Source of the DNA: Mesorhizobium sp. 113-3-3
GTDB taxonomy: Bacteria; Pseudomonadota; Alphaproteobacteria; Rhizobiales; Rhizobiaceae
DNA: 64,000 bases
Assembly: GCF_016756495.1 (NCBI RefSeq)
Contig: NZ_AP023243.1
Location: forward strand, 3,476,501 to 3,540,500
Direction: 5' to 3'
Part shown: one piece after another, positions 47,646-55,036 of the stretch
How positions within the stretch are numbered: position 1 is the first letter of the stretch
How the letters are laid out: every line of letters begins with the position of its first letter
Notes under the pieces: model-generated
The model's database searches: none
The model's input: the letters and a program-made list of their open reading frames with translations, nothing else
Told to the model about the DNA's origin: nothing
Program-made: the position numbers and the translations under genes

Positions 47646-48928
47646 GCGAGGCGGCGGCGGCAAGATCGGCGGGCGCCGGCCCGTTCTCCTTCTTCGAGCG
47701 CACGGTTGCGTGGCGCTATTTGCGCTCGCGGCGCAAGGAGACGGTGATCTCGGTCATCGCCTCCATCTCCTTCCTCGGCATCATGCTGGGGGTGGCGACG
47801 CTGATCGTCGTCATGGCCGTGATGAACGGGTTCCGCGCCGAGCTTTTGACGCGCATCCTCGGCGTCAACGGCCATCTGATCGTGCAGCCGCTCGATTCGC
47901 CGCTTGAGGACTACGCCCAGGTCGCCGGCCGAATCAACGGCGTGCCCGGCGTCAAATACGCCATCCCGCTGATCGACGGCCAGGTGCTGGCGCAAGGCAA
48001 TGTCGGCGGCGGCACCGGCGCGTTGGTGCGCGGTATCAGGGGCGAGGATCTCGGCAAGATCGCCATCGTCGCCAACAACATCAAGCAGGGTTCGCTCACC
48101 GGTTTCGATTCGGGCGAGGGCGTCGCCATCGGCAAGCGCATGGCCGAGAATCTCGGGCTGACGCTGGGCGACACCATCACGCTCATCTCGCCCGATGGCG
48201 ACGTGACGCCGATCGGCACGACGCCGCGGATGAAAGGCTACAAGATCGCGGCGATCTTCGAAGTCGGCATGTCGGAATATGATACGTCCATCGTCTACAT
48301 GCCGTTCTCCGAAGCACAGCTGTATTTCAACATGGATGGCCGCGCGCAGACGATCGAGATCTACGTCGACAATCCCGACAATGTCGACGCGCTGAAGCCG
48401 AAGGTGGAAGAGGCGGCGCAGCGGCCCATCGACATGGTCGACTGGCGCCAGCGCAACGAGACCTTCTTTTCCGCCCTGCAGGTCGAGCGCAACGTCATGT
48501 TCATGATCCTGACGCTGATCGTGCTGGTGGCGGCGCTCAACATCATTTCGGGACTGATCATGCTGGTGAAGGACAAGGGGCACGACATCGCCATCCTGCG
48601 CACCATGGGCGCCTCGCGCGGCGCCATCCTGCGCATCTTCCTGATGACGGGTGCAGCGATCGGCGTCACCGGCACGCTCGCCGGCGTGCTGCTCGGCGTC
48701 GTCATCTGCACCAACATCGAATCGATCCGCCAGTTCTTCTCCTGGATGACGGGCAAGGTGCTGTTCAACCCGGAACTCTATTTCCTCAGCCAGCTGCCGG
48801 CGAAGATGGATCCGCGCGAGACGACCTATGTCATCATCATGGCGCTTGGGCTGTCCTTCCTGGCAACGGTGTTTCCGGCATGGCGGGCCGCCCGCCTCGA
48901 TCCGGTCGAAGCCTTGAGGTACGAGTAG
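47642..48928 (+). CDS. lolC: Lipoprotein-releasing ABC transporter permease
   Basis: A 428-aa inner-membrane permease of the LolC/E family, which extracts outer-membrane lipoproteins for LolA. The N-terminus [29 protein letters not shown] precedes the first membrane helix; a large periplasmic domain and three C-terminal helices follow, with [25 protein letters not shown] single permease gene next to lolD suggests a LolF-type homodimer. It overlaps both proS and lolD. Confidence 0.93.
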
Positions 48929-49608
48929 TGGCCGAGGTCATTATCGAACTGAAGAGCGTCGAGCGGCACTATGTCCAGGGGCCGCGCAAGCTTACCATTC
49001 TGAACGGTGCCGATTTCTCGTTGAAGCGCGGCGAGATGGTGGCGCTGGTGGCGCCGTCGGGCACCGGCAAGTCGACGCTGCTACACACAGCGGGCCTGCT
49101 GGAGCGCCCCGACGCCGGCGACGTGATCCTGGCCGGCCGGGCCTGCGGGCGGCTCTCCGATGACGAGCGCACGTCGATCCGCCGCAACGATGTCGGCTTC
49201 GTCTACCAGTTCCACCATCTGCTCCCGGAGTTTTCCGCGCTGGAAAACATCATGATGCCGCAGCTGATCAAGGGGCTGCCGCGCAAGGAAGCGGCCGAGC
49301 GCGCCGCGCAGCTGCTGGATTACATGCAGATCGGCAAGCGCGCCTCGCACCGGCCGTCCGAACTCTCCGGCGGCGAACAGCAGCGCGTCGCCATTGCCCG
49401 CGCAGTGGCCAATGCCCCGCTGGTGTTGCTGGCCGACGAGCCGACCGGCAATCTCGACCCGGTCACCGCCTCCTATGTCTTCGAGGCGCTGGGCGCGCTG
49501 GTCAAGCAATCGGGCCTCGCGGCACTGATCGCCACCCACAATCACGAGCTGGCATCGCGCATGGACCGGCGCGTCACGCTGGCCGACGGCAAGGTTGTGC
49601 CGCTTTAG
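48928..49608 (+). CDS. lolD: Lipoprotein-releasing ABC transporter ATP-binding protein
   Basis: A 226-aa ATPase partner of LolC. Walker A ([18 protein letters not shown]) lies near residue 38, the signature [15 protein letters not shown] near 147 and Walker B ([11 protein letters not shown]) near 168. The Ala in [10 protein letters not shown], where Gly is usual, is common in LolD. The start is a GTG at 48928 overlapping the TAG stop of lolC by one base. Confidence 0.94.
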
Positions 49609-49652
49609 GGCACGGAGTTTCGCCTTACGAGTATCACACGTGCGACTCTGCC

Positions 49653-49823
49653 TCAGAACCGCCAGTAAGTATTCAGTGCGATCAGGGTGGAAGAGATCAC
49701 GATCATCACCAGGATAATCAGCCAAGTTACAACGTTGCGGGAGAGGCGCCACCGGCGGCCTTGTCTCATGCGCTTTCGCCAGCGATCAGCTTGATTGGCG
49801 CCTTCGTGTTGCCCCACGTCCAT
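49653..49823 (-). CDS. Possible small single-helix membrane protein
   Basis: A possible 56-aa protein whose C-terminal half is a convincing membrane helix preceded by a basic stretch (RRWRLSRNVVTWLIILVMIV). The N-terminal half is unremarkable and no ribosome-binding site is obvious at the ATG at 49823; a shorter start at 49769 or a longer frame to 49928 are alternatives. The rest of 49609-50024 holds nothing clear. Confidence 0.4.
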   Translation of the reverse strand: MDVGQHEGANQADRWRKRMRQGRRWRLSRNVVTWLIILVMIVISSTLIALNTYWRF

Positions 49824-50024
49824 CACTCGGTGGTCGTACGGCTTACCACTATTGTCTCGACTAAGATTGAGTGCAAGGAGCCACAAAGGGCTCATCCGTA
49901 CGCTGCGGGAAGATGGCCCGCCCGACATCTTCCTGACCTGTTGATAGGCGCCGCGCCGTCAACCTTTCCTTAACCCTGCCGATTTGATCGCCCGGAGATT
50001 CTGGGCGAGGCCGGATTCTGCGCG

Positions 50025-50059
50025 TTGACTTTGAAACAAAATTAGAACAAATTGCGAAC
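50025..50059 (+). promoter_or_regulatory. LexA-controlled (SOS) promoter
   Basis: GAAC-AAATTGC-GAAC at 50045-50059 is an exact match to the alphaproteobacterial LexA box (GAAC-N7-GAAC). It overlaps the predicted -10 region (50048-50053), 17 bp after a TTGACT -35 at 50025-50030. LexA bound here should block RNA polymerase until DNA damage. The start codon of the 28-aa peptide is 23 bp downstream. Confidence 0.85.
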
Positions 50060-50081
50060 ATATCAACAACAGGAGAGAGTT

Positions 50082-50168
50082 ATGACCGATCTGGTTCAGG
50101 ATGTCATCTCACTGGTTTGCATGAGCACCTTCCTCATTTCCATGGCGATCTGGATCGGCGCCATGTGA
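50082..50168 (+). CDS. 28-aa SOS-controlled membrane peptide
   Basis: A complete ORF of 28 residues (begins MTDLVQDVISLVCM, ends AIWIGAM). A strong AGGAGAG ribosome-binding site lies at 50071-50077, and a LexA box overlaps the promoter. Apart from Asp3 and Asp7 the peptide is hydrophobic and should form one transmembrane helix, with a small-residue/aromatic C-terminus. I recognise no named family. Size, topology and LexA control resemble SidA, the 29-aa SOS-induced division inhibitor of Caulobacter crescentus, which acts on the FtsW/FtsN divisome; homology is not claimed. The next gene starts 112 bp downstream on the same strand. Confidence 0.8.
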   Translation: MTDLVQDVISLVCMSTFLISMAIWIGAM

Positions 50169-50280
50169 TCTGGCGGCTCTCGCCGCCGTCGTTCCTGGCG
50201 GGTGAAACCCGCTTCCCCGTTAAGCCTTTCTTGCCGCCGCGACGCTAGGGTGCGTCTCTCAGGCAGGGAGCAACATCCAG

Positions 50281-51531
50281 GTGTCGCCCATCGTCACGGC
50301 CATTCTGGTGGCCAGCAATCTCGGGCTGATCTTTCTCTTGATGACCGTGCCGCTCGGTTCGCGCACGGTCAGGGTCAGCCGCGTGATTGCGATGGACCGC
50401 CAGCGCCTCTGGGAGGCGCTGTGGCCGCTTGGCAGCGACGCCGGCTGGTCCGGTGAGATCCTGTCGGCCGAACCGCTGGACGGGGAGGGTGTGTCGCGCA
50501 TCATGCTGTCGTGGGAAGGCCGCGACGGCAAGCCGATCGAGCGCCGGGCGCGGTTTGACGATGTCGTCGAGGGCAGCCGCTTCTCGATGCGTGTGCTCGA
50601 GGATACCGCGCTCGATGCCTCGTTCTGGAAAGATTATTGCGAAACCGCAGAGCTGGCTTCCGAAGGCGGCGGCACGCGCGTGACGCTCGGCCGGACGGAT
50701 CGCTACCGTGGCGTTGCCTTTCTGGTGTTCCGTTACTTCGCCATGCGCCGCGAGCTGTCCAAGCTGCAGCGCTGGGCGGTGACGGGGCAGTACCGCAAGG
50801 GCGGCTGGTTCGAGCACCCGCTGAGCCAGGTCGGCTTTGCCGTGCTGTCGGCACTGATCCTGTGGCCGTTCTTCGGCCTCCATCTCGGTGGGCTGGCGCT
50901 GGCCGCGATCCTGACGTCGGTTGTCGCCCTGCACGAGCTCGGCCACATGGCGGCGTTCCGGCTGATGGGCCATCGCAAGGCGCGGATGATCTTCATCCCG
51001 CTGCTCGGCGGCATCGCCATTGGCGGCCGGCCCTATAACAGCCGTTTCGAAGTGGCCTTCGTGGCGCTGATGGGGGCGGGGTTTTCCGCCTTCCTGGTGC
51101 CGATCGTGATTGCCGCGAGCACGTTTGCGGGCAGCGAGGGGCACAAGGCCGCAGCCGCGCTGCTGGCGGCGCTGGCGGGCTGTGCGGCCCTGTTCAACAT
51201 CGCCAATCTGGTGCCGGTGTGGAAGTTTGACGGCGGCCAGGTGCTGCGCCAGATCTGCCCGGGGCCGGTCGCGCTGGCACTAGCCTCGTTCTTCCTGCTT
51301 TCCGTCTTCCTGGCACTCGGCCGACAGGCTGGCTTCTCGTCAGGCTTTCTAATCGTGACGGGAGCGGTCTTTTCGATCCTCAGCCTGCTCACTGTCGGCA
51401 GCGGCGTGAAGCCACGCCACGAGCTGGAGCCGATCCGCACCGCTGACCGCTTCGCCATCGCCGGCGCGCTGCTGGCGGTGTTCACCATTCATGGCTGCGG
51501 CGTTCTGTGGGCGTCGGCGCAATTGCTTTGA
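50281..51531 (+). CDS. SRPBCC-domain / site-2-protease-like (M50) fusion protein
   Basis: A 416-aa protein. After an N-terminal membrane helix (residues ~5-22), residues ~30-160 resemble a START/SRPBCC ligand-binding domain. Residues ~183-415 are polytopic and carry the metalloprotease motif HELGH at 218-222 and the distal VPVWKFDGGQ with Asp317, the two zinc-site parts of M50 site-2 proteases. It could act in regulated intramembrane proteolysis, with the SRPBCC part sensing a hydrophobic ligand; this is inference. The start is a GTG with an AGGGAG site upstream. The SOS peptide precedes it; lipB is convergent. Confidence 0.8.
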   Translation: MSPIVTAILVASNLGLIFLLMTVPLGSRTVRVSRVIAMDRQRLWEALWPLGSDAGWSGEILSAEPLDGEGVSRIMLSWEGRDGKPIERRARFDDVVEGSRFSMRVLEDTALDASFWKDYCETAELASEGGGTRVTLGRTDRYRGVAFLVFRYFAMRRELSKLQRWAVTGQYRKGGWFEHPLSQVGFAVLSALILWPFFGLHLGGLALAAILTSVVALHELGHMAAFRLMGHRKARMIFIPLLGGIAIGGRPYNSRFEVAFVALMGAGFSAFLVPIVIAASTFAGSEGHKAAAALLAALAGCAALFNIANLVPVWKFDGGQVLRQICPGPVALALASFFLLSVFLALGRQAGFSSGFLIVTGAVFSILSLLTVGSGVKPRHELEPIRTADRFAIAGALLAVFTIHGCGVLWASAQLL

Positions 51532-51551: not shown

Positions 51552-52295
51552 TCAGCCCGCCTTGCGGGCGGCCTCGGCGGGCAAAGCCGCCACGGGACCG
51601 AATACCCCCTCGAAGGCTGATTTCAACGCCAGGTCGAGGTCGGCCATGCCGACGGGCAGGCCAAGGTCGACGAGGCTGGTGACGCCGTGGTCCTGCACGC
51701 CGCACGGTACGATGCCGCCGAAATGCTCTAGTTCCGGCTCGACATTGATGGCGATGCCGTGAAAGCTCACCCAGCGCCGCAGCCGGATCCCGATGGCCGC
51801 GATCTTGTCCTCCGCCGGCGAACCGTCCGGCAGGCGAGGGCGATCGGGCCGCACCACCCAGACGCCAACCCGGTCCTCGCGGCGCTCACCGCGCACATTG
51901 AAGGCGGCGAGCGTGCCGATGATCCACTGTTCGAGCGCGGCGACGAAAGCGCGGACATCCTCGCGCCGCCGTTTCAGGTCGAGCATGACATAGGCGACCC
52001 GCTGGCCGGGGCCATGATAGGTGTATTCGCCGCCACGCCCGGCGGCAAAGACCGGAAAGCGATCGGGATCGATCAGGTCCTCGATGCGGGCGCTGGTGCC
52101 GGCGGTGTAGAGCGGGGGATGTTCGACCAGCCAGACCATTTCGCCGGCGGCCCCGCTGCGGATCGCTTCGGCGCGGGCTTCCATGAAGGCCAGCGCATCG
52201 GGATAGGCGGTGAGGCCAGGCTCGATGCGCCACTCGACGGGTGCCGAACCGGGGAGCGGCAGGAACGACGTGGCGATCTGGCTGCGTTCTGTCAT
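51552..52295 (-). CDS. lipB: Octanoyltransferase LipB
   Basis: A 247-aa enzyme moving octanoyl groups from acyl carrier protein to lipoyl domains, the first step of lipoate synthesis. Family motifs are [15 protein letters not shown] near residue 60, [23 protein letters not shown] near 90 and the catalytic Cys in [17 protein letters not shown] near 190. The ATG at 52295 was preferred over a start 24 codons upstream. It is convergent with the protease-like gene. Confidence 0.95.
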
Positions 52296-52483
52296 GGTTT
52301 TTCGTTTTTTCGCTTGTGCACACCATATGGCGATATCGGGTGCAAACGTCCAGTTCCGCATGCTCATTCCGATCCTGTGGACCGATATGCCAATCGGTTG
52401 AGATTATTGCTCATCGCGCACTTGTTTCGCCGGAAACGATTTGCTACACGCCGCGAGCCGGTCGGTTCCGGCTCCTACCACGT

Positions 52484-52568
52484 GCGGTCGTGGCGGAATT
52501 GGTAGACGCGCAGCGTTGAGGTCGCTGTGGGGCAACCCGTGGAAGTTCGAGTCTTCTCGACCGCACCA
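52484..52568 (+). tRNA. tRNA-Leu (anticodon GAG)
   Basis: An 85-nt class II tRNA. The acceptor GCGGTCG pairs with CGACCGC, the anticodon stem CAGCG/CGCTG encloses the loop TTGAGGT with GAG, the long variable arm GTGGGGCAACCCGT is present, and the T loop is GTTCGAGTC. The CCA is encoded. An accessory module with lower G+C begins within 100 bp downstream. Confidence 0.97.
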
Positions 52569-52661: not shown

Positions 52662-54443
52662 TCAGTAGCGCCTCATATACCCGGCTAGGCGCTTTAGATT
52701 TTTCATTTGCAGTTCCAACACCGATGTTCGACCGCCCGCAAAACCGGCTTCAATTAACGTGTCCCGCATTGGATTGGTGAGAATCTCATCCTCCAGAGCA
52801 CGGAACGATTGAGTTCTCCAAAGAATTCGCCCCATCGGCGGGTGTATAAAGTCGTTTTGATCTGCTAGCGCCTCGGTAAGAGCTGCCTCTGAGGTGCTAT
52901 CCAGATGTGCCAAAGATCCAAGAGTTTCAAAGCGGTCGAACAAAAGTTCAAAATCAGATGATAGTCCGATGAACGGCCGACTCCAATCGGTGAAAATATC
53001 TAGAAGGTGATCGCTCAGTGGCGTTTTCCGACCTTCAAAACCTTCGATATTGCGCCAGGCATCTCGGTCATGCCCTTCCCACTCCCAGAGAAACAGCGTC
53101 TCCACAAGTCGCTTGGACTTATTCCCATTGCTATCCGGAAAGTTGAGTGAAAATAGATTGTGCAGTTCTCTCCATCTTTGTGAGCGGCATAGTCCTAGGC
53201 CATAAGCGGTGAATATGAGAACTGCCGGGTACTCCCGCAGTCCCAATAAAAATGTGTTGCCGCTCCTCACTTTGTTGGCCCGTGTTACCAACGTTCGGAT
53301 CAGATCTGCTACCAACGGAGCCTCATTCCCTTCCCCCCACCGACCCATCGCGCCAGCTGCCTTGGCTAAAGCTTCCGACATCGACTCGTACCTGGCGACG
53401 CGTGTCCGAAAATTGTCCGCGGACCAACTTGCGTTGGCAGAAAATTCTTCTGCTGCAGATTCCTTCGCCACCCGCTCTGCTTCGCGTGAGACGAGGTCAT
53501 CAAGCTGGATGCGATGCTCCGCACGGGCGAGGTATCGCTTAGCTGTACTTACGAAAAGGTCGACGCTGAGAGGGTTTTGCTTCCGAGTGGTCGCCAATGT
53601 TTCTATGCGTTGGCCGGTGGATGTGAAGAACGTGTCGGCGTCGGCAATCCTAACTATTTGAGCTTTTTTGCTCCGGATGATTTCCTCGGCGCCGGTGCCT
53701 GGATCGCCACGCAGCGTCCAGAAGATTGGATATCGGCGATTGGGTGCCCTTAACAGGGCTGCTCGTAATGCGTGATCCCACTCACCCGACCAACCGCATA
53801 TTACTAGTCCATGCTCGTCGAAAATCCTGTTTAGAAGCGCGTCGTACGGTGCAGGATAGCCACCCAGTTCTTCATCGGTGTTAAGGATGCGGGCGTCTTT
53901 ATAATCGCCGTGCAATTTCAGCACATAGCAGGCGCTGTGGGTCAACGGCTCTGCTCCGGAGAGTGCATCGACAGAGGACACCACAGTCGGTTCAATTCCA
54001 GCCTCGCGGAGAGCGTTTTCTAGCAATCGATCAAAATTTGTGGTGACGATGACTCGGACATAGCCGTCACGGACTAGCCTCGCGATGGCGTGATGCGCGG
54101 CGGTCGGCAACTTCTTGCCTTCTGAGCGTTCCTCTTCGTCAGGCTCGATATAGGAATGCAAGATTGATCTGCGTTCGGCTGGAGAGGCTGCCAATTCCTC
54201 CAAGAGCGTCGAATAGTCAGGCGCGCCGCCGATCTCGTCGCGATACCATGTTGCCCAATCCGAACGATCCTCCACTCCCTTGGCAAGGGCGACGCGCCGC
54301 ACCAGATCAAGAGTGATTTCCCAGCCTGTTGGAATTCCGGCTGCACGGGATAGTCCAGAACCAAGAAGCAGGGCATATATGCCTCTGTTCTCGAACATAG
54401 AGAATGCGAGTTGCGTTGTCAGATCGCCTGCGAGAAGGCTCAT
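52662..54443 (-). CDS. SIR2-domain protein, probable defence NADase
   Basis: A 593-aa protein. Residues ~20-260 form a SIR2-like NAD-binding domain: LLLGSGLSRAAGIPTGW near residue 25, VTTNFDRLLENAL with Asn136, LKLHGDYKD with His178, and VICGWSGEWDHALRAAL. These Asn and His positions are the catalytic pair in bacterial SIR2 defence NADases. Residues ~290-593 are a helical region I do not recognise, perhaps a sensor. The ATG overlaps the stop of the nuclease-like gene (ATGA), so the two are coupled. G+C and codon use are lower than in flanking genes, fitting horizontal gain beside tRNA-Leu. Anti-phage NAD depletion is inferred. Confidence 0.82.
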   Translation of the reverse strand: MSLLAGDLTTQLAFSMFENRGIYALLLGSGLSRAAGIPTGWEITLDLVRRVALAKGVEDRSDWATWYRDEIGGAPDYSTLLEELAASPAERRSILHSYIEPDEEERSEGKKLPTAAHHAIARLVRDGYVRVIVTTNFDRLLENALREAGIEPTVVSSVDALSGAEPLTHSACYVLKLHGDYKDARILNTDEELGGYPAPYDALLNRIFDEHGLVICGWSGEWDHALRAALLRAPNRRYPIFWTLRGDPGTGAEEIIRSKKAQIVRIADADTFFTSTGQRIETLATTRKQNPLSVDLFVSTAKRYLARAEHRIQLDDLVSREAERVAKESAAEEFSANASWSADNFRTRVARYESMSEALAKAAGAMGRWGEGNEAPLVADLIRTLVTRANKVRSGNTFLLGLREYPAVLIFTAYGLGLCRSQRWRELHNLFSLNFPDSNGNKSKRLVETLFLWEWEGHDRDAWRNIEGFEGRKTPLSDHLLDIFTDWSRPFIGLSSDFELLFDRFETLGSLAHLDSTSEAALTEALADQNDFIHPPMGRILWRTQSFRALEDEILTNPMRDTLIEAGFAGGRTSVLELQMKNLKRLAGYMRRY

Positions 54444-55036
54444 GCTGTAATCTTTCCGAGCAGAGCGACCTGGAATGCAGAGGCACTCGGTTTGGGATGA
54501 AACCAAATCTCAACCGGGATATCTTTCGACGCGACTTTGGAAGCCCCTTCGATCCGAGCCAGCAACGCATCGTTCACTTCGTTGCCGAACAGCAGGTATA
54601 TGGCTCGTTTGTAACCAACCTTGGTTCGAAAAAGTGCGAGTGTTTCCAAATCTTTCCGAATTCCACTAAGCGGTGGCCGGGCTGACTTCACTTCGATAAT
54701 GGCATAGTTGCCAACCATGTAGCCCGGCTGATGAACCAGAAGGTCGGGTTTGGCATAAGCGGCTCCTAACTCGACCAATATCGGATGCGCGGCCTTGTCG
54801 ATTTCTCCATTCAAGTAAAACGGCGTGCCAGCCGGCCAGATGGAACGCATCTGATGATAAAGCTCATAGCAATAAACCCGCTCGCGGTAGATAGGGTCGC
54901 CTCCGTCGATCTGGAGGTGAATGTACTCAGGCGGAATGGCGGCAGTTGCGTGTTCAAGGATTGCCGTCAAAGCTTCCAAGTCTGTTCCCCCGAGTCGTCT
55001 GCCAGAAATAGTAATCCGGAAATTTGTGCGCGACAC
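54440..55036 (-). CDS. PD-(D/E)XK nuclease-like protein paired with the SIR2 gene
   Basis: A 198-aa protein with a likely PD-(D/E)XK active site: Glu58 in YCYELYHQ, Glu78 in NGEIDKAAHP, Asp98 in KPDLLVHQPG and Glu115-X-Lys117 in YAIIEVKSARP. The family includes restriction, repair and phage-defence nucleases. The start is a GTG at 55036 without a clear ribosome-binding site. It is the first gene of a two-gene operon overlapping the SIR2 gene by 4 bp, and its base composition matches that gene. Whether it cuts DNA or only recognises a phage product is unknown. Confidence 0.75.
   Translation of the reverse strand: MSRTNFRITISGRRLGGTDLEALTAILEHATAAIPPEYIHLQIDGGDPIYRERVYCYELYHQMRSIWPAGTPFYLNGEIDKAAHPILVELGAAYAKPDLLVHQPGYMVGNYAIIEVKSARPPLSGIRKDLETLALFRTKVGYKRAIYLLFGNEVNDALLARIEGASKVASKDIPVEIWFHPKPSASAFQVALLGKITA

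Follow-up and report, generated by a model that had tools for sequence, protein, structure and literature searches.

The window, that is, the whole stretch of 64,000 nucleotides analyzed here, carries at 50082..50168 on the forward strand a 28-codon gene (ATG at 50082, stop codon at 50166-50168) for a candidate orthologue of the cell division inhibitor SidA. The peptide, MTDLVQDVISLVCMSTFLISMAIWIGAM, is predicted to form one hydrophobic helix, the hydropathy of its best 19-residue stretch being 2.13. Upstream on the same strand lie a ribosome-binding site, AGGAGAG, at 50071..50077 (AGGAG-like motifs also precede the start in many relatives); a predicted LexA operator, an exact box of the form GAAC-N7-GAAC, GAACAAATTGCGAAC, at 50045..50059; and a -35 element, TTGACT, at 50025..50030, the first and last of these read from the sequence. 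The frame of 28 codons, AGGAGAG, TTGACT, and the exact box had all been pointed out in the first-pass annotation, and all are present. A degenerate first half-site, AAAC, with one mismatch, stands at 50034..50037 (forward strand), 11 bp before the next half-site; CAAATT at 50048..50053 (forward strand) is, from its position within the operator and its 17-nt spacer from TTGACT, the probable, weak -10 element. A consensus scan of 49600-50500 for promoters and terminators found neither.

The conserved upstream neighbor is lolD at 48928..49608 on the forward strand (ABC_tran, 2.3e-30). Downstream are a gene of the M50 peptidase family at 50281..51531 on the forward strand (PF02163, 2.6e-11), which is not a conserved partner, and the convergent lipB at 51552..52367 on the reverse strand (LplA-B_cat, 2.9e-35). 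The names LolC, LolD, and ProS follow gene order. Further along, near a tRNA-Leu (52484-52568), a SIR2-type protein of 614 residues is encoded at 52662-54506 on the reverse strand, with PADLOC family PDC-S65 as best match (1.1e-219).

Conservation of the peptide gene and its operator

Taken alone, the open reading frame is unremarkable, with many frames of similar size nearby, and a gene of this kind is easily missed. The box alone is within chance: it occurs once in the 64-kb window against 1.46 expected, and the genome of 7.7 Mb has 189 copies, fewer than the 206 of the reversed pattern. As there is no excess in either, the box by itself was rejected as evidence. What raises frame and box above chance is conservation, namely the exact box in relatives and the dN/dS, rather than either feature alone. 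Across 10 genomes (the window's own and nine relatives; pairs not independent) dN/dS was 0.068, with differences by codon position of 116/25/442; the ratio implies selection on the amino-acid sequence of the peptide, and on these comparisons the gene is almost certainly real.

The family of the window, presumably Rhizobiaceae in the order Rhizobiales as judged from named relatives, was represented by 151 genomes from 109 genera. A search with the single peptide gave matches in 81 of the 151 genomes at E<=1, and a family profile matched 124 genomes and 92 genera at E<=0.01; this profile had 50 rows drawn largely from the same genomes, which makes the result partly circular, and some of its matches are of a box-less kind. 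From 141 listed match places 131 were examined, and 110 of these were syntenic, with LolD, DnaE, or LipB within the fetched stretch. The peptide has 28 residues in 98 of the 110 syntenic copies; among these 98, Phe17 and Ser/Ala10 are present in all, residue 7 is Asp in 96 and Glu in two, and the net charge is -2 or -1 in 87.

Of the syntenic family copies, 109 have all 110 nt of upstream sequence, and 101 of these carry the exact box, where dinucleotide shuffling predicts 0.64; with the exact box of the window, these copies present the predicted LexA operator over the promoter that is a feature of SidA genes. The remaining eight comprise six with a one-mismatch site and two (L074, L077) with neither. 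The consensus of the box across the syntenic copies is GAACAAAAATAGAAC. The TTGAC spacing recurs as well: the first exact box stands most commonly 9 nt after the TTGAC start (54 of the 82 syntenic loci in which box and TTGAC were found). At the place of the window's AAAC, relatives often have GAAC. Over all 110 syntenic loci, the longest run of exact GAAC at an 11-bp period had three half-sites in 18 loci, two in 83, and a single one in 8, with no exact half-site in 1.

Elsewhere in the same genome, an exact box is found before lexA (86 nt ahead of the family match), 24 nt before an ImuA-like gene (NCBIfam ImuA, 5e-14, below its cut-off), and, in the opposite orientation, 32 nt before a DNA polymerase IV gene; recA has a one-mismatch box, GAACAAAAAAGGTAC. 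Fourteen genome boxes were chosen by eye for an A+T-rich spacer and three of them precede recognized SOS-type genes; being hand-picked, with an SOS-type gene at few, they serve as illustration and not as a regulon. At L334 (G000:C1:3899819-3899833) an exact box of the A+T-rich type lies about 31 nt before a second DNA polymerase IV family match, the open reading frame of which extends upstream of the match, so that the box is inside a longer open frame. A box at an efflux-type gene (L335) was taken as a chance site. By analogy with Caulobacter, the conserved operator makes it very probable that the peptide gene is under LexA control.

An order-wide profile search gave matches in 67 of 297 genomes at E<=0.1, and 24 of the 28 loci read had an exact box within 120 nt (several belong to the window's own genus or family). 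The first-pass annotation would have been contradicted by loss of the frame where the flanking DNA is kept, and this was looked at in 78 named dnaE loci (80 taken from a longer list of DnaE matches, two dropped at contig ends). For the greater part its expectation stood, 68 loci retaining the peptide and 64 of them the exact box; it failed at 10 loci below score, eight without match and two low-scoring, one of which (L391) has the box. Conservation thus extends over a large part of the order. A peptide gene precedes dnaE in Ensifer oleiphilus, Sinorhizobium saheli, Rhizobium, Agrobacterium, Brucella gallinifaecis, Bradyrhizobium, Stappia, Kaistia, and others; the Sinorhizobium copy at L343 reads MTDFVRDLAAFASMSLFIASISVIALGL. 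The failing loci include four from Bartonella and those of Mesorhizobium sp. J18, Aquibium, Chelativorans, and Nitratireductor; the last four may have the gene next to lolD at a distance from dnaE, which is also the arrangement in the window. The Bartonella dnaE loci without the peptide are L382, L383, L385, and L418, and Bartonella tamiae (L377) keeps both peptide and box; loss of the peptide inside this genus is possible.

Twenty of the 27 family genomes without a profile match were searched again, with boxed candidates in nine and none in 11. LexA was over cut-off in 16 of these 20 genomes, so the peptide can be absent where LexA persists, and the idea that only genomes without LexA lose the peptide was not supported.

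Relationship to SidA and the lolD slot

In Caulobacter, SidA has 29 residues, resides in the inner membrane, and acts on FtsW (PMC4211646), and deletion of lexA leads to filamentation because of sidA (PMC12700426). The window peptide, at 28 residues against 29 for SidA, likewise has one membrane helix, and SidA as described in part in PMC4211646 and modeled in NF033228 has in common with it the GAAC-N7-GAAC box and the slot 3' of proS-lolC-lolD. In the rhizobial genomes this slot is fixed as proS-lolC-lolD-peptide, followed by dnaE, a convergent lipB, or M50; lolD is upstream and on the same strand in all 83 of the 110 syntenic loci where it was found.

The only NCBIfam family found for 28 members of the wider profile was NF033228, "cell division inhibitor SidA", which matched one of them (E 0.067, 13.2 bits, below the cut-off of 35). 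The window peptide itself had no match to NF033228 and stays outside membership by the curated 35-bit cut-off; Pfam gave only weak, unrelated matches on the same 28 members (best E 0.033). In a class-wide sample NF033228 was over cut-off in one of 385 genomes (G794). In the family of that genome, f115, which we take to be the Caulobacteraceae or Caulobacter group from named relatives and from the matching of the SidA model, 67 of 80 genomes matched, 49 of them over cut-off. Among 14 named controls, in both searches, NF033228 also matched Escherichia coli, Bacillus subtilis, and Caulobacter vibrioides, one control being over cut-off; given the E. coli and B. subtilis matches, weak scores of this model mean little.

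G794 has the gene order proS-lolC-lolD-SidA and a box 40 nt ahead of the SidA start, and in two f115 genomes below cut-off LolD is 0.9 and 2.5 kb upstream. For the best 30 f115 loci, 28 of which were readable, an exact box was present within 120 nt in 21 and absent in seven, and LolD was upstream within 1.5 kb in 14 of the 30. The rhizobial peptide thus occupies the same slot as SidA recognized by NCBIfam.

Homology was examined by profile comparison. The rhizobial peptide and SidA align without gaps from Met1, with matching positions D/E7, A/S10, L/F11, and F17; the rhizobial copies do not conserve W19-M20, invariant in 21 aligned SidA sequences, or the basic residue at position 3 of the SidA set. 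Against the SidA profile hhalign gave 58.5% for the family profile, a modest match, and 90.4% for the order-wide profile; none of 150 column-shuffled SidA profiles did as well in either comparison, and in a fixed-register test, 24 of 20,000 column permutations scored at least as high. With slot, operator, length, and sequence all in agreement, it is highly probable that the window peptide is the rhizobial orthologue of SidA. The first-pass annotation had proposed just such a rhizobial counterpart under LexA, and it is strongly supported by the homology, the location syntenic with Caulobacter-group SidA, and the conserved operator.

A class-wide profile search gave matches in 30 of 385 genomes at E<=0.1; among six loci read, three were boxed, namely G761 and two loci of the window's order, and the others were box-less. 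Because of this outcome synteny was used to probe distant genomes. Of 25 genomes outside Rhizobiales, 23 had LolC, and 22 lolC-lolD loci were read: in three, a box lies 130-161 nt past the LolD match with a small hydrophobic frame behind it, in two the box is at a distance of 620-789 nt, and in 17 there is no box. As candidates for SidA these distant boxed frames are suggestive only. Boxed small hydrophobic frames 3' of lolD were seen at L184, L543, L548, and L554 (the Caulobacter group and three other families of the class); they suggest that the lolD-sidA slot is old in the class.

Neither a rhizobial SidA nor a rhizobial SOS division inhibitor was found in titles or abstract openings among the open-licence literature matches listed. 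The locus offers a precise candidate for an SOS division-inhibitor gene in Ensifer, Sinorhizobium, Rhizobium, Bradyrhizobium, and others, and would carry SidA beyond the Caulobacter group into an order with, as parts of the literature have it, many pole-growing members.

Proposed action of the peptide and alternatives

Built on the gene, the selection on its protein, the operator, the synteny, and the homology presented above, the following course is proposed; LexA binding, induction, the division block, and the FtsW target are carried over in it from Caulobacter. LexA on the tandem GAAC half-sites would cover the promoter and keep the peptide gene off; DNA damage would activate RecA and LexA would cleave itself; a short independent transcript would then allow rapid synthesis of the 28-residue single-helix peptide, which would enter the inner membrane and halt septal wall synthesis at the FtsW/FtsI/FtsN step, and cells would elongate undivided until LexA returns. 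As a whole, this explanation, a LexA-repressed single-helix orthologue of SidA that halts division, is judged probable. That the peptide is a division inhibitor is likely on the same analogy, and FtsW is the favored candidate for its target, with somewhat less assurance. The invariant Phe17 and the acidic residue 7, in about a hundred diverged copies, point to a surface in contact with the divisome.

Several known systems are comparable. DidA of Caulobacter is also a small DNA-damage-induced membrane division inhibitor; it differs in its 71 residues, its independence of SOS, and its interaction with FtsN (according to a part of PMC4211646). YneA of B. subtilis and SosA of Staphylococcus aureus are SOS-induced membrane division inhibitors and differ by a LysM domain and an extended helix, respectively; no homology between them and the peptide is claimed. 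In low-confidence AlphaFold 3 models, SosA and SidA, like YneA, are placed at TM7 of FtsW, SidA on the opposite side (excerpt of PMC13396833).

A peptide of this size, with a single hydrophobic helix and a LexA-type box, would fit equally well an SOS peptide that disturbs the membrane potential and slows growth while sparing the divisome. TisB of E. coli is a LexA-controlled hydrophobic peptide that targets the membrane itself. DinQ of E. coli, according to a part of PMC3567139, is a toxic single-transmembrane SOS peptide, alike in being hydrophobic and LexA-controlled and unlike in its antisense small RNAs. The homology and chromosomal slot common to SidA speak against such a depolarizing role, as does the preservation of F17 and acidic residue 7, which is what a protein-protein contact would be expected to keep; furthermore, no Rfam family was found in 49600-50400, a search that an undescribed antisense RNA would escape. 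Depolarization is therefore considered improbable, and division inhibition by a SidA orthologue is preferred.

The genes downstream bear on the question whether the frame acts in its own right. Over the 110 syntenic loci, a same-strand dnaE follows in 68, a convergent lipB in 35 (35 of 35 where found), and M50 in nine (some loci have two). In 16 loci a convergent lipB ends less than 400 nt from the peptide, and no M50 or DnaE was found. From this variation the peptide gene would be its own short unit, with M50 as an occasional neighbor. A leader or upstream open reading frame that, following damage, governs how the next gene (dnaE1 or M50) is transcribed or translated would suit the loci with dnaE next, and the Sinorhizobium meliloti sORF25, in the dnaE1 5'-UTR, is listed as a possible upstream frame in a part of PMC10117765. 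Such a role is very improbable: the next gene varies, and the 16 loci with convergent lipB leave nothing to lead; the dN/dS reflects selection on amino acids; and the 121 nt that follow show no exceptional folding (z -1.28). The same part of PMC10117765 describes sORF25 as translated; it is probably the same gene as the SidA candidate studied here (S. meliloti is outside the set of named loci).

Coupling to the M50 protease gene, which the first-pass annotation had held possible and by which the protease would clear the peptide after repair, is hardly tenable and was rejected: a dual protease mechanism does promote recovery from such a checkpoint in B. subtilis (PMC6051672, in part) and the M50 match starts 154-226 nt past the peptide start codon in the nine loci that have it, against no M50 match in 101 of the 110 syntenic loci (a few stretches being short).

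SidA-like peptides without a box and on viral contigs

The 21 examined matches without the usual neighbors (of 131) comprise five with an exact box and 16 without. Among these 16, L242 has one-mismatch sites at three places, which leaves 15 that are both box-less and non-syntenic (L083, L084, L090, L093, L094, L060, L096, L239, L260, L277, L285, L287, L293, L294, L295). When neighbors were tested against PHROGs, at least one match was obtained at 10 of 13 box-less loci (L293 and L294 left out), some of the matched families occurring also in hosts: exonuclease VIII and RecT at L083; RecT at L084; exonuclease and SSB at L295; exonuclease VIII at L093; exonuclease and a tail-fibre-like or unknown family at L239; repressors at L285 and L287; and unknown phage families at L260, L277, and L096. 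Neighbors of L060, L090, and L094 had no PHROGs match.

IMG/VR was searched with six neighbors from box-less loci, giving 129 loci; one query, the L277 neighbor, found nothing. With a profile built excluding the box-less copies, SidA-like peptides were found on nine of the 129 IMG/VR stretches at E<=1.3e-3, none of them boxed, and independent cases are fewer than nine, as L296 and L448 match their query locus at 100% and L297 and L298 have the same peptide. Reversed open reading frames of these stretches gave no match to the same profile. Searches by tblastn with the 28 residues against phages and plasmids, and with two prophage copies against phages, gave no match, queries this short having little power.

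From the box-less copies near phage-type genes and the SidA-like peptides on IMG/VR stretches, rhizobial prophages seem to carry LexA-independent SidA-like peptides. Chances are about even that rhizobial temperate phages carry them in early recombination modules (exonuclease VIII, RecT, exonuclease, SSB) and that they halt host division under control of the phage and not of the host; that prophage copies block division is put forward as a hypothesis. Kil of phage lambda and Gp0.4 of T7 are phage proteins likewise tied to host division; they concern FtsZ, according to parts of PMC3961180 and PMC13423816, and the prophage copies here resemble the SOS peptide of the host. No report of a prophage-borne SidA was among the open-licence literature matches listed. 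If the proposal holds, the SOS checkpoint peptide of the host and an anti-division peptide of phages would be one family, with the alphaproteobacterial lolD-sidA locus as its cellular branch, and use of the same peptide by prophages would connect the SOS checkpoint with the control that phages exert over division of the host. The viral contigs with SidA-like peptides are L296-L299, L422, L425, L426, L446, and L448; a typical peptide among them reads MRDLLHDIASFVAVSTFIATFAVWAGYLAEKV.
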